45,666 nucleotides of DNA, taken from Acidobacteria bacterium RIFCSPLOWO2_12_FULL_68_19. Lineage in GTDB: Bacteria > Acidobacteriota > Vicinamibacteria > Vicinamibacterales > UBA2999. A model generated the notes under the pieces. That model was not told where the DNA came from. It did no database searches and saw nothing but the letters and a program-made list of their open reading frames with translations. Within the stretch, counting starts at the first letter, position 1. Every line of letters starts with the position of its first letter. The stretch is from NCBI GenBank assembly GCA_001767525.1, contig MELF01000001.1:49346-95011 (forward strand), written 5' to 3'. A program made the translations under genes and the position numbers. Of the stretch, positions 35,364-41,136 are shown one piece after another.

Positions 35364-35378
35364 TTGAAAGGAACACGT

Positions 35379-37709
35379 ATGAAGTTCTGCAGGATGATGC
35401 TGGCGGCGCTGGTGCTGTCCGCCGCGCTCGGGACCGACGCCCTCGCCCAGACGGCGGCTGCCAAGGCGGCGCCCCCACCCGGCATTCCGACCGTGTCGCT
35501 CGCCAACGTCGCCCGTCAGGGATTCTGGTTCGCCGGCGGGAAGTACGTCGGCGAGCTCGGCGAGGACAAGGAAGCCACCATGGGCGGCGCCATGTACGTC
35601 GAGGTAATGGTGCCGAAGCAGATCCGGTCGCCGTATCCGATCGTGCTCTTCCACGGCGCGGGGCAGACCGGCGTCGACTGGCTGCAGACGCCGGACGGTC
35701 GCCCCGGCTGGGCCTACAACTTCCTCGACATGGGGTACGTCGTCTACATGACGGATTTCCCGGCGCGCGGCCGCTCGCAGTACGTGCCGGGCGTCGACGG
35801 AAACCTGACGATCCGGACCTCGGACAACCTCGAGGAGATCTTCACGGCCGCCGCCGCCCGGGGCAACTTCCCGCAGGCGAAGCAGCACACGGCGTGGCCG
35901 GGCACCGGGCGCATCGGCGACAAGATCTTCGACGACTTCGCGAAGACGCAGGTGCAGTTCCTCCAGGGCAACCGGCAGGAGACGCTGACGCGCGACGCCT
36001 ACATCGCGCTGCTCGATGCGATCAACACGCCGGTCATCCTGCTGACGCACTCCCAGGGCGGCGCCTTCGGCTGGCTCGTCGCCGACGCGCGGCCGAACCT
36101 CGTCAAGGCGATCGCCACGCTCGAACCGGCGGCGCCGCCGATCCGCGGCGTCGACAACGCCAAGGTCGCCTACCAGCAGGGCGGGGGCCTGAGCTGGGGG
36201 GTGGCGAACAGCCCGATTACCTACGAGCCGGCCGTCAGCGATCCGAAGGAGCTGCAGACGGTGCTCGAGGCGCAGGCGCCCGCCGCCGACAAGGTGCCGT
36301 GCTACGTGCAGCAGGAGCCGGCGCGGAAGCTCAAGAACCTGCAGAACATTCCGGTGATGCTGATGGTCGGCGAGGGGAGCTACCACCGCATCTACGACCA
36401 CTGCCTCGCGAAGTGGCTCACCCAGGCCGGCGTCAAGACCGAGTACGTCGAGATGGAGAGCGTCGGCCTGCGGGGCAACGGCCACATGATGATGCTCGAG
36501 CGGAACAGCGCGGACATCGCCAAGTTCATCGGCGGCTGGCTGAGCCGCACTGCCCGGCCGGGGCGCGGCGAGAACGCGTCGCGGGCGACGCCGCCGAAGT
36601 CGATCCCGACGTTCCCGGTGGAGAACATCGCACGGAAGGGATTCTTCTACGCCGGCGGCAGCCACTGGGGCGAGCCCGGCCGCCGGGTGATGCGCGGCGC
36701 GATGTACACGGAAGTGCTGGTGCCGCGGCAGATCCGCCATCCGAACCCGGTCGTACTGTTCCACGGCAACGGCCAGACCGGCGTCGACTGGCTGCAGACG
36801 CCGGACGGGCGCGCCGGCTGGGCCTACCGCCTGGTCGACGAGGGCTTCGTCGTCTACATGGTGGATTACCCGGCGCGCGGCCGCTCGACGTACGTCCCGC
36901 TCCCCGGCGCCGACGGCAAGGCGCCCGTCGACGGCAACATCGGGATCCGCACGGCGCTCGAGATCGAGCGGATCTGGACCAACGCGCGCGAGCGCGGCGA
37001 CTTCCCGCTGAAGATGAACCACACGCAGTGGCCCGGCAGCGGCAAGATGGGCGATCCGGTCTTCGACTTTTTCATGAAGACGCAGGTCCAGTTCGCCGGC
37101 GCGACGGGGCAGCTCGTACGGCCGGCCGGAATCGCGCTGCTCGAGACGATCGGCACCCCGGTGATTTTCTTCACGCATTCCCAGGGCGGCGGCTTCGGCT
37201 TCGACATCACCGAGGCGCGCCCGCATCTGGTGCGCGCGCTGATCACGGCCGAGCCGGGCGGCCCGCAGTTCGGCAACGTCGACACCGCGAAGGTGACGAC
37301 CGGTCCGCGCAACCCGAACTCGTGGGGGCTCACCAACAACCGGTACGAGTACGACCCGCCGGCGAACGCGCCCGGCGAGATCGACGTGGTGCTCGAAGAG
37401 AGATCGGAACACCCGGACGAGGCGCGCTGCTGGATGCAGAAGGAGCCGGCGCGCAAGCTCGTCCGGTGGCAGAACATCCCGGTCGTGGCGCTCTCGGCCA
37501 ACGGCACGTATCACCGGGTGTACGACCCGTGCATCCCGAAGTTCCTCAAGCAGGCGGGGGTGCGGGCCGAGTTCATCCGGCTCGAGGAGGTCGGGATCAG
37601 GGGCAACAGCCACATGATGATGTCCGAGCGGAACAGCGACGAGGTCATCAAGTGGGTAATCGGCTGGATCCGGAAGAACGCGCCCGCGACGGTGACGAGC
37701 ACGCGGTAG
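35379..37709 (+). CDS. Secreted protein with two tandem alpha/beta-hydrolase domains
   Basis: The protein has 776 residues, about twice the size of one domain. A signal peptide (1-24) is followed by two homologous halves, about 37-390 and 405-770. Each contains VLFHG-x-GQTGVDWLQTPDGR, VVYM-x-D-x-PARGRS-x-YVP and a nucleophile elbow THSQGG (Ser225 and Ser601). Each half ends with RGN-x-HMMM-x-ERNS (His369 and about His745). Both nucleophiles and both histidines are kept, so both halves could be active. The arrangement implies internal duplication and fusion. AAAGGA lies before the ATG. The gene follows the 21-bp inverted repeat and ends in a strong hairpin. Esterase activity is inferred. Confidence 0.85.
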   Translation: MKFCRMMLAALVLSAALGTDALAQTAAAKAAPPPGIPTVSLANVARQGFWFAGGKYVGELGEDKEATMGGAMYVEVMVPKQIRSPYPIVLFHGAGQTGVDWLQTPDGRPGWAYNFLDMGYVVYMTDFPARGRSQYVPGVDGNLTIRTSDNLEEIFTAAAARGNFPQAKQHTAWPGTGRIGDKIFDDFAKTQVQFLQGNRQETLTRDAYIALLDAINTPVILLTHSQGGAFGWLVADARPNLVKAIATLEPAAPPIRGVDNAKVAYQQGGGLSWGVANSPITYEPAVSDPKELQTVLEAQAPAADKVPCYVQQEPARKLKNLQNIPVMLMVGEGSYHRIYDHCLAKWLTQAGVKTEYVEMESVGLRGNGHMMMLERNSADIAKFIGGWLSRTARPGRGENASRATPPKSIPTFPVENIARKGFFYAGGSHWGEPGRRVMRGAMYTEVLVPRQIRHPNPVVLFHGNGQTGVDWLQTPDGRAGWAYRLVDEGFVVYMVDYPARGRSTYVPLPGADGKAPVDGNIGIRTALEIERIWTNARERGDFPLKMNHTQWPGSGKMGDPVFDFFMKTQVQFAGATGQLVRPAGIALLETIGTPVIFFTHSQGGGFGFDITEARPHLVRALITAEPGGPQFGNVDTAKVTTGPRNPNSWGLTNNRYEYDPPANAPGEIDVVLEERSEHPDEARCWMQKEPARKLVRWQNIPVVALSANGTYHRVYDPCIPKFLKQAGVRAEFIRLEEVGIRGNSHMMMSERNSDEVIKWVIGWIRKNAPATVTSTR

Positions 37710-37781: not shown

Positions 37782-37988
37782 ATGCCTGCGAAGCCGTTCC
37801 GCATAGTCGAGACACCACCGGGTCTGCCGTCCGCCGAGGAGCTTGCCCGAAGCTATCACCTGACTCCGCGCGAGACGGCGTCTATTAGGAGATTCGTCGC
37901 CTCAGTACGCCGGGGCCGGCGGACTGGCACGTCCGTGAGCGTCGCTCGTTTCCGTTCACGCGAGCGGGTGGGCGCGCGTAAGAAGTAG
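37782..37988 (+). CDS. Small basic protein upstream of the TIR-like gene
   Basis: The protein has 68 residues: FRIVETPPGLPSAEELARSY, then HLTPRETASIRRFVASVRRG and a basic C-terminus. It resembles short helical accessory or antitoxin-like proteins, but no family was recognised. Its TAG stop is immediately followed by the TTG start of the next gene, so the two genes are translationally linked and probably form a module. Confidence 0.5.
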   Translation: MPAKPFRIVETPPGLPSAEELARSYHLTPRETASIRRFVASVRRGRRTGTSVSVARFRSRERVGARKK

Positions 37989-38582
37989 TTGGCTGTTGCC
38001 AAGCGGCCGGACGAGGTCTTCCTCAACATCCCGTTCGCGGAATCTCACGAATTCCTGTACCTCGCACTGATCTCGGGCCTCGTGGCGCTGCGCCTCAAGC
38101 CCCGCAGCGTTCTGGAGATCCCGCCTCAACAGTACCGCCTTCAGCGCCTCTACCAGTTGATCGTGTCGTGTCCCTACTCAATCCACGATCTGTCCCACGT
38201 CACCCTCTCGAACGCCGGACACCGAGTCCCGCGTTTCAATATGCCGTTCGAACTGGGCATCGCGGTGGCCATCGCGCTCGCCCAGCAGCGCGTGAAGACG
38301 CACCAATTCCGAATCTTCGAGAGGGAGCCGCACCGCCTGCAGCAGTCGCTCAGTGATGTCCTGGGACACGATCCCTACATCCACAGAGGCTGTGCGCAGG
38401 GGGTGCTGGAGTGTCTGCTGGATGTGTTTCCCGATCTGCCGGCCGCACCCGATCTGTCGGAAATGCGAAGACTGTGTAAAGATCTTCGCCGCTTCCGAAG
38501 GGAAAGGCTTGGTGAGAACGTCTTCACGCCGAGGGCGTTTTCGACTCTCGTCGTGACCGCGCGCAAGCTGATTGAGGCATGA
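37989..38582 (+). CDS. TIR/nucleoside-2-deoxyribosyltransferase-like protein
   Basis: The protein has 197 residues and starts at TTG directly after the previous stop. VFLNIPFAESHEFLYLALIS opens the fold; LYQLIVSCPYSIHDLSHVTL and RFNMPFELGIAVAIA follow. The V-F-x-N-x-P-F, Y-x-IHD-x-S and NMP-x-E-LG elements match a family of small bacterial proteins related in fold to TIR and deoxyribosyltransferase domains, in which the Glu of the ELG motif (Glu88) would be catalytic. Such proteins often lie in defence islands. The gene is convergent with the HsdR-HsdM fusion (20 bp apart). An NAD- or nucleotide-cleaving effector role is an inference. Confidence 0.6.
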   Translation: MAVAKRPDEVFLNIPFAESHEFLYLALISGLVALRLKPRSVLEIPPQQYRLQRLYQLIVSCPYSIHDLSHVTLSNAGHRVPRFNMPFELGIAVAIALAQQRVKTHQFRIFEREPHRLQQSLSDVLGHDPYIHRGCAQGVLECLLDVFPDLPAAPDLSEMRRLCKDLRRFRRERLGENVFTPRAFSTLVVTARKLIEA

Positions 38583-38601: not shown

Positions 38602-41136
38602 CTATGGACCGGCTTTGCCGACCCCCGTTGCTCGAAGCCGGGCCGCGATCTTCGTGAACTGCTCGAGCGCGGCTTCCAGGTCATCGGCAATCTCCGTGGC
38701 CAGGACGTCGGGCGGCGGCAGCGAGTCCGTATCCGTCAGGCTCTTGTCCCTGATCCAGAATAGATCCAGGCTCAGCTTGTCGCGCTTCACCAACTCTTCG
38801 TACGCGTAGGACCGCCAGCGGCCTTCCGGGTTCGACTCACTCCAGGTATCGGCGCGCTCGTGCAGCCGGCCCGGCTTGTAGCAGGCAACGAAGTCGTCGA
38901 AGTCCTTCCGCTGAATCGGGGACTGCTTCAGCGTGAAGTGCATATTGGTTCGAAGGTCGTACACCCACAGGCGATCGGTCCACGGCTCGGCGCGCCCTTC
39001 CTTCTTGTCGAAGAAGATCACGTTCGCCTTGACGCCCGGCGAGTACCAGATGCCGGTGGGGAGTCGCAGCAGCGTGTGCACGCGGCACTTCTGCAGGAGG
39101 TTGCGCCGCACCTTTTCGCCCGCGCCGCCCTCGAAGAGCACGTTGTCGGGGACCACCACCCCCGCACGCCCGTCGATTCTCAGCAGGGTGAAAATGTGCT
39201 GGACGAAATTGAGCTGCTTGTTGCTCGTCGACGTCCAGAAGTCTTCGCGAAAGACCTGCGCCTCCTCCTTGTCCAGCTCGCCTTCTTCGTTCACGAATAG
39301 AACGCTCTGGCTCTTGCCGAAGGGCGGGTTCGTCAGGACCATCGAGAATTCGTCCGCCCATGGCGCGAGCAGGCTATCGTGGCCGGTGTGCACGACCACT
39401 TTCGACTCTCCACCGATGCCATGGAGGTACAGGTTCATGGCGCACATCCGGCCGACCTTGGTGGAGATTTCCATCCCCTCGACCAGATCGGTCTGGAGCG
39501 CGCGCTTCTGGTCGGCGTCGAGCTCGCCGCCGAACCGATCGAGGACGTGCTGGTAGGCGTTGAACAGGAAGCCCCCGGTGCCGGCGGCGGGATCGCAGAT
39601 GCGATCGGCCGGCGTCGGCTGCATCACGTCGCAGATGGCCTGGATGACCGCTCTTGTCGTGAAGTACTGACCCGCGCCCTTGGTCGATTCGGCGGCGGAT
39701 CGCTGAAGGAGCTCTTCGTAGATGACGCCTTTCACGTCGACGGGAAGGCTGGTCCAGTCTTCCTTGTCGATCAGGTTGACGATCAACTGCTTCAGCAGCG
39801 CAGGATTCCGGATCTCGCACCGGGCGTTCTTGAAGATGACGCCGAGCATGCCGGCTCTGGCGCCGAGCCGGTCGAGGATCTTCTGGTACTGCACTTCGAG
39901 CGCGGGACCATCGAGTGTCAGCAGCGTCTTCCAGCCCAGTTCCGCGGGGACGATCGGCGCGCGGCTGTACGGCGGCTCGGTGACCTGTGTCCGAATACGG
40001 TAGACGTCGAAGTCGACGTTGACCCCGTCGGCGACCGCCTCGTCGTGGCCGTATTGCATCACGAGGTTCTGGTTGAAGAACCCGACCGTCTTTCCGGCGG
40101 GCGTCGCGGTCAGACCAATCAGGAATGCATCGAAGTAGAGGAGCACCTGACTCCACAGTTCGTAGATGGAACGGTGGCATTCGTCGACGATGATGAAGTC
40201 GAAGAACTCGGGCGGGATGCCAGGGTTGTACACGACTTCCGGCGGTGCGCCCTGCCAGGGTCTGGCCGAGTCAAAACTCGATCCTTCCTCGTCTTCCGCC
40301 TGGAAATCGGCTTCGCCCTTCAGCATGGAGTACAGCCGCTGGATCGTCGTGATGACCACCTTGGCTGCCGGGTTGATCGAATTGGTCTTGAGCCGCTGAA
40401 CCGTGTACAGCGTCGGGAACTTCCGCGGGTCGTCCGGTGGTTCGAAGTTCGCGAACTCGTCTTCGGTCTGTTTGCCGAGATTGCCACGGTCCACGAGGAA
40501 CAGGATTCGCTTGACCCCGGCGAACTCGAGCAGGCGGTAGGCAACGTTGACCGCCGTGAATGTCTTGCCCGATCCAGTCGCCATCTGCACGAGCGCCCGG
40601 GCGTCGCCCCGGGCCAGCGACGCTTCGAGGTTCCTGACGGCCTGAACCTGCACGCTCCACAAGCGCGTTTCGTCGAGCGCCGGCAGGGTCCGCAGGCGCC
40701 CGCGAAGCTGCTGATCCTGGGCGAGCCACTCCGCCAGCGTCTCCACTCGTGGAAAGCTGAACACCTGGCGGCTCCTGGGCGTCGGATCGAGGCCATTCGT
40801 GAAGTAGGTGACCGATCCATTGGTCTCGAACAGGAAAGGCAGGGGACGTGTGTGTGCCGGGAGATTCTCTGGGAGTCCCGCCGCGTACTTCGCGGACTGT
40901 GCTTCGACGCCGGTCAGCGTGCCGTGCGCCTTCGCCTCGACCGCGCCGATTGCCTTCCGGTCCACATAGAGCAGGTAATCGGCGAAGCCGAAACCCGGCT
41001 TCATCTGAAACTCACGCACGGCGATGCCCCGACCGGCGGTCAGGTCCAGCTCGTCGCGGCTCTGTACCATCCATCCCGCAGCGGAGAGGTCGGCGTCGAT
41101 TGCCCGGCGGGCCTTCTGTTCGGGAGTCTCGGGCAC
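38602..41136 (-). CDS. In-frame fusion of truncated type I HsdR and HsdM
   Basis: The protein has 844 residues from GTG at 41136. Residues 1-400 are HsdR: nuclease site GFGFADYLLYVD (Asp53) with GAVEAKA (Glu67, Lys69), Walker A ATGSGKT (186-192), DECH (318-321) and GLTATP (341-346). At about 400-416 the sequence switches to HsdM: LGARAGMLGVIFKNA, WTSLPVDVKGVIYEELLQRS, GAGQYFTTRAVI (FTPR usual), SAM site DPAAGTGG (515-522) and catalytic NPPFG (603-607). The second RecA helicase domain and C-terminus of HsdR and the N-terminal part of HsdM are missing, and no hsdS is in the window. The uninterrupted frame argues for a precise deletion. It could be a relic or a methylase with a tethered nuclease. 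Confidence 0.85.
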   Translation of the reverse strand: MPETPEQKARRAIDADLSAAGWMVQSRDELDLTAGRGIAVREFQMKPGFGFADYLLYVDRKAIGAVEAKAHGTLTGVEAQSAKYAAGLPENLPAHTRPLPFLFETNGSVTYFTNGLDPTPRSRQVFSFPRVETLAEWLAQDQQLRGRLRTLPALDETRLWSVQVQAVRNLEASLARGDARALVQMATGSGKTFTAVNVAYRLLEFAGVKRILFLVDRGNLGKQTEDEFANFEPPDDPRKFPTLYTVQRLKTNSINPAAKVVITTIQRLYSMLKGEADFQAEDEEGSSFDSARPWQGAPPEVVYNPGIPPEFFDFIIVDECHRSIYELWSQVLLYFDAFLIGLTATPAGKTVGFFNQNLVMQYGHDEAVADGVNVDFDVYRIRTQVTEPPYSRAPIVPAELGWKTLLTLDGPALEVQYQKILDRLGARAGMLGVIFKNARCEIRNPALLKQLIVNLIDKEDWTSLPVDVKGVIYEELLQRSAAESTKGAGQYFTTRAVIQAICDVMQPTPADRICDPAAGTGGFLFNAYQHVLDRFGGELDADQKRALQTDLVEGMEISTKVGRMCAMNLYLHGIGGESKVVVHTGHDSLLAPWADEFSMVLTNPPFGKSQSVLFVNEEGELDKEEAQVFREDFWTSTSNKQLNFVQHIFTLLRIDGRAGVVVPDNVLFEGGAGEKVRRNLLQKCRVHTLLRLPTGIWYSPGVKANVIFFDKKEGRAEPWTDRLWVYDLRTNMHFTLKQSPIQRKDFDDFVACYKPGRLHERADTWSESNPEGRWRSYAYEELVKRDKLSLDLFWIRDKSLTDTDSLPPPDVLATEIADDLEAALEQFTKIAARLRATGVGKAGP

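Follow-up and report, generated by a model that had tools for sequence, protein, structure and literature searches.

The window, the 45,666-nucleotide stretch of DNA analysed here, carries at 38602..41136 on the minus strand a GTG-initiated frame of 844 codons in which a type I hsdR gene passes directly into hsdM. Is this a new single-chain restriction enzyme, or what a deletion has left of an ordinary operon? The preliminary description had reported an in-frame HsdR-HsdM chimera with an uninterrupted 844-residue frame in which the nuclease, RecA1, SAM and NPPF motifs are complete; in these respects it was correct: no stop occurs within the frame and all four sets of motifs are present. The joint, which it had placed between residues 400 and 416, lies instead at residues 385–388.

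Codons 1–387 (39976..41136, minus strand) derive from hsdR, and their product matches an intact HsdR of 932 residues from a relative (G083) at 87% identity over the first 387 residues of that protein. This part contains the nuclease motif (D53...E67-A-K69) and the RecA1 motifs Walker A (GSGKT, 188–192), DECH (318–321) and TATP (343–346); Pfam ResIII and SWI2_SNF2 match at about residues 159–376, and the NCBIfam profile NF046051 (EcoAI-type HsdR) matches residues 10–388 with positions 8–358 of its 768. Codons 388–844 (38602..39975, minus strand) encode the HsdM-derived part, about 81% identical to the HsdM of locus L027, with SAM motif I (DPAAGTGGF, 515–523) and NPPF (603–606). Here Pfam N6_Mtase covers residues 467–760 and the PADLOC type I methyltransferase profile residues 392–837 (profile positions 46–480 of 487). 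The HsdM segment (residues 388–837) begins at about HsdM residue 47, and residues 47/49 to 508/510 of EcoKI M can be aligned with it. The SAM and NPPF motifs had been described as complete, which is true, but about 46 residues are also lost at the N-terminus of HsdM. Profile searches returned neither PF08463 nor Helicase_C in the chimera, both of which are present in the intact operon L030, and Pfam matched neither Helicase_C nor Methylase_S anywhere in the 844-residue chain. Together with the lack of an hsdS gene at the locus, this bears out the earlier statement that RecA2 and HsdS are missing. The chain is thus neither a full type I HsdR, which has two RecA domains and a C-terminal assembly domain besides the nuclease, nor a complete HsdM, and no HsdS subunit accompanies it. 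A chance frame is ruled out because all columns invariant among relatives are kept, 54/54 in the HsdR-derived part and 93/93 in the HsdM-derived part; GC3 of the fusion is 0.84.

How did the two genes come to be joined? Intact relatives (L028, L030, L033, L045 and G424) have the order hsdR-hsdS-hsdM on the same strand, and in two of them, L030 and L045, the middle gene matches Methylase_S. Of the intact operons found, that of G424 is closest, being 82% and 81% identical to the chimera at the two ends. Because the genes follow each other in this order on one strand, the parts missing from the chimera are contiguous and one deletion explains the loss of all of them. The ancestor would have been a complete type I restriction-modification operon of this order, and a single deletion of about 3.3 kb, beginning late in RecA1, crossing hsdS and ending shortly inside hsdM, would have taken out RecA2, the second helicase domain, with the C-terminal end of HsdR, the entire hsdS and the first ~46 residues of HsdM, leaving the start of hsdR in frame with the remainder of hsdM. 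The size corresponds to the distance between the retained HsdR end and the retained HsdM start in L028, calculated from coordinates.

The joint itself coincides with a 9-base word, TCACCGAGC (39975..39983, minus strand), which has matching places in both hsdR and hsdM of relatives. Across the joint the fusion reads ACA CAG GTC ACC GAG CCG CCG TAC, where G083 hsdR has AGG GTC ACC GAG CAG and L027 hsdM has CAG CTC ACC GAG CCC; the relatives' versions around the word are GTCACCGAGCAG in hsdR and CTCACCGAGCCC in hsdM. In G083 hsdR and L027 hsdM the word stands in identical phase and encodes T-E in both, while the hsdM copy in G424 differs; the direct repeat is one read from relatives and not from the parental operon of this species. 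The deletion most likely would have taken place between two copies of this short direct repeat, by replication slippage or another RecA-independent event, although we infer both the slippage mechanism and the exact deletion length from sequence comparison.

That such a deletion should leave an open frame may seem to call for selection, and the uninterrupted frame had been read as a sign of selection or a recent event. We counted, in seven operons (L118, L028, L029, L030, L033, L041 and L045), how often words common to hsdR and hsdM lie in the same phase. Pooled, 67% of 8-base and 69% of 9-base words are in phase, with a per-operon share of 48–79% at 8–9 bases. Codon-shuffled controls give 66% and 71%, respectively, and base-shuffled ones 34%, so the in-phase excess stems from codon composition. 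By this calculation, which is based on word matches and assumes that deletions use such repeats, some two-thirds of deletions between shared words should yield a fused frame, and the open chimeric frame therefore needs no selection. Of the earlier reading the recent event is supported; the in-frame joint, with about two-thirds of shared words in phase anyway, no longer counts as evidence for selection. Selection was also considered as the cause of in-frame joints more generally. In a non-systematic sample of hsd joins seven are in frame (G000, which is the genome of the window, G001, G124, G037, G222, G451 and G472) and two out of frame (L037 and L031), a ratio that looks unusual against one third but is already predicted by an in-phase share of ~0.67, and we rejected this explanation.

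The other six genomes with in-frame joins, all of the same phylum, likewise carry internal deletions that link distant hsd segments; their joints differ from that of the chimera, and each looks like a separate event. The G222 locus (C63, L117, 1986-3335, minus strand) joins HsdR residues 1–407, with nuclease and RecA1, in frame to the HsdM C-terminus, giving a 449-codon fusion to which HsdM contributes its last ~47 residues. Its joint lies at a KRDK/KRHK-coding stretch, and HsdR is broken just past RecA1, as it is in the window. An HsdR-HsdM join is also seen in G124 (L113), in frame and with an internal TAG, and G037 (L108) has an in-frame join within HsdM. In the numbering of the G424 frames, HsdR 179 is connected in frame to HsdS 481 in G451 (L120, 590-1219, minus strand) and HsdM 163 to 492, also in frame, in G472 (L122, 2545-2931).

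The fusion found in the window was not recovered among the other relatives, GTDB loci and viral contigs searched. No unbroken match over the joint exists in the 148 other relatives searched (149 genomes including this one), and a scan of the GTDB contig collection gave 77 loci, with HsdR pieces or HsdM pieces but not the joint; a few alignments of that scan start at query residues 339–365, at loci that carry ordinary HsdM. Among viral contigs there was no fusion, and the one contig that matched did so over query residues 661–838 only. Plasmids gave 3319 matching records, 49 of them with a query coverage of 80% or more, and the best 15 of the 3319 consist of two or three pieces spread over ~4 kb, with hsdR and methylase annotated as distinct genes in most; the fusion may still occur on other plasmids. 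Among the titles and abstracts listed in literature searches there was no report of a natural HsdR-HsdM fusion. The earlier proposal to look for the same fusion in other genomes thus led to none among relatives and GTDB loci, and the sister species carries another deletion. Of the two observations that had been named as pointing to a plain deletion relic, no homologous fusion and no expression, the first therefore holds in the genomes searched.

This sister, G001, is the only other species of the genus in the comparison set and has the locus at the same synteny, with both flanks syntenic and 78–88% identical over the main aligned blocks. Here residues 1–56 are joined in frame to 728–837, leaving 169 codons; this is a different and larger deletion than in G000, and the rest of the G001 genome yielded no intact copy. 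Over the 164 codons common to both species dN/dS is 0.064 at a dS of 0.53, and three neighbouring genes show dS of 0.39, 0.63 and 0.52 with dN/dS of 0.15–0.33. Since dS of the locus falls within the range of its flanks, the locus descended vertically, and a dN/dS this low at such a dS shows that the operon was selected until recently and stood under constraint for most of the G000-G001 divergence. The two species differ at ten amino acids. Of the changes that can be polarised, which are few, the larger share belongs to G001 (K at hydrophobic site 23, S at 770 and N at 781 among them) and the smaller to G000 (R at 796). Synonymous sites are near or at saturation in more distant relatives, which precludes a branch test of the fusion. 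The dN/dS check advised in the preliminary description therefore speaks for past constraint but does not separate recency from continued selection: the value of 0.064 and the lack of invariant loss fit a deletion that took place very recently in G000, but would also fit a fusion kept by selection.

In our view the chimera is best read as the relic of a type I restriction-modification operon, hsdR-hsdS-hsdM, that has suffered a recent deletion, with a probability of roughly 0.85. What speaks against a relic is the open frame of 844 codons, its full set of invariant residues and a dN/dS that betrays no neutral decay. Could the fusion be older, predating the split of the genus and then trimmed further in G001? 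The G001 deletion (57–727) does span the G000 joint, as this would require, but a dN/dS of 0.064 over a dS of 0.53 would demand strong selection on the fusion in both lineages, which makes an ancestral fusion unlikely. An assembly error at the hsdR-hsdM junction is harder still to credit. What allows for it is a draft genome of 52 contigs; against this, the common word is just 9 bases long, shorter than the word lengths usual in assemblers, the locus sits inside a contig of 95 kb and is syntenic with G001 on both sides, and a separate collapse of the same locus is seen in that species.

The remaining possibility is a working single-chain nuclease-ATPase-methylase under selection, which would receive HsdS from elsewhere via the intact C-terminal part of HsdM. 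The retention of all inspected catalytic motifs and invariant columns is in its favour, and so is the behaviour of the engineered RM_EB series, nuclease-HsdM fusions from a staphylococcal system in which HsdR segments of 171–285 residues were fused to hsdM at its 5' end: given HsdS, these modified phage DNA, but they gave no restriction (Bower et al., 2018; PMC6158711). The chimera resembles them in having an N-terminal HsdR segment and HsdM in one chain, and differs in its longer HsdR segment, truncated HsdM and absent HsdS. The absence of ~46 HsdM residues and of RecA2 weighs against function, as does the reduction of the same locus to 169 codons in G001. A supply of HsdS in trans was examined, following the earlier advice to look for hsdS beyond the window. 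Three HsdS loci were found in the genome, none of them close to the HsdS of this operon family; identity is ~21–36% over most aligned stretches, with higher matches in short conserved pieces of 23–35 residues, and we discarded this source. We thus regard a functional enzyme of this kind as highly improbable, and give as little credence to the wider idea of a fusion that is expressed and maintained as a functional single chain, be it a methylase that takes its HsdS in trans or, for instance, a natural step from type I towards single-chain restriction enzymes.

Among known systems, the nearest kin is a type I operon with EcoAI/EcoEI-like HsdR (NF046051, with PF08463 in intact relatives) and EcoKI-like HsdM, of which residues 1–387 and 388–837 of the chimera are direct and highly conserved descendants; unlike in such an operon, two proteins are merged, HsdR has lost RecA2 and its C-terminal parts, hsdS is gone and HsdM lacks its start. 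Mimicry of type ISP enzymes had been suggested, and the nuclease-ATPase-methylase order in a single chain is indeed alike. However, the chimera has no RecA2, target-recognition domain or HsdS and would have arisen by deletion inside a type I operon; membership of type ISP is ruled out by the lack of the first two. In the known type I mechanism there is no translocation without RecA2. The chimera should therefore not translocate DNA. HsdM without HsdS has no target either, and since the chimera comes with no specificity subunit, neither restriction nor methylation of specific sites is expected of it. In all likelihood it is an inactive relic, a lack of activity that we infer from domain content, and an ordinary remnant of a defence system rather than a novel single-chain enzyme.

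The slot adjoining the fusion is occupied by two small frames on the plus strand, convergent with it (37782..38582; 68 and 197 codons), which we mention as context only. The 68-codon frame (37782-37988) precedes the 197-codon one (37989-38582), which has no Pfam, NCBIfam, PADLOC or PHROGs match; its relatives, at 37–50% identity, occur in 4 of 118 other genomes, with none found in G001, where a DUF3800 gene takes the slot of the small frames. At 35364-37709 (plus strand) a 781-codon frame contains two alpha/beta hydrolase stretches in one chain and aligns along its length with its counterpart in G001 (dN/dS 0.33).

One apparent new enzyme architecture can thus be struck from the list of candidates. 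The result also carries a caution: in GC-rich coding DNA, deletions between short repeats within an operon should yield in-frame fusions in far more than a third of cases, and an open chimeric frame alone is no evidence of selection. At the same time, the in-frame collapses seen here show how chimeric hsd genes can arise, as possible raw material for single-chain restriction enzymes.
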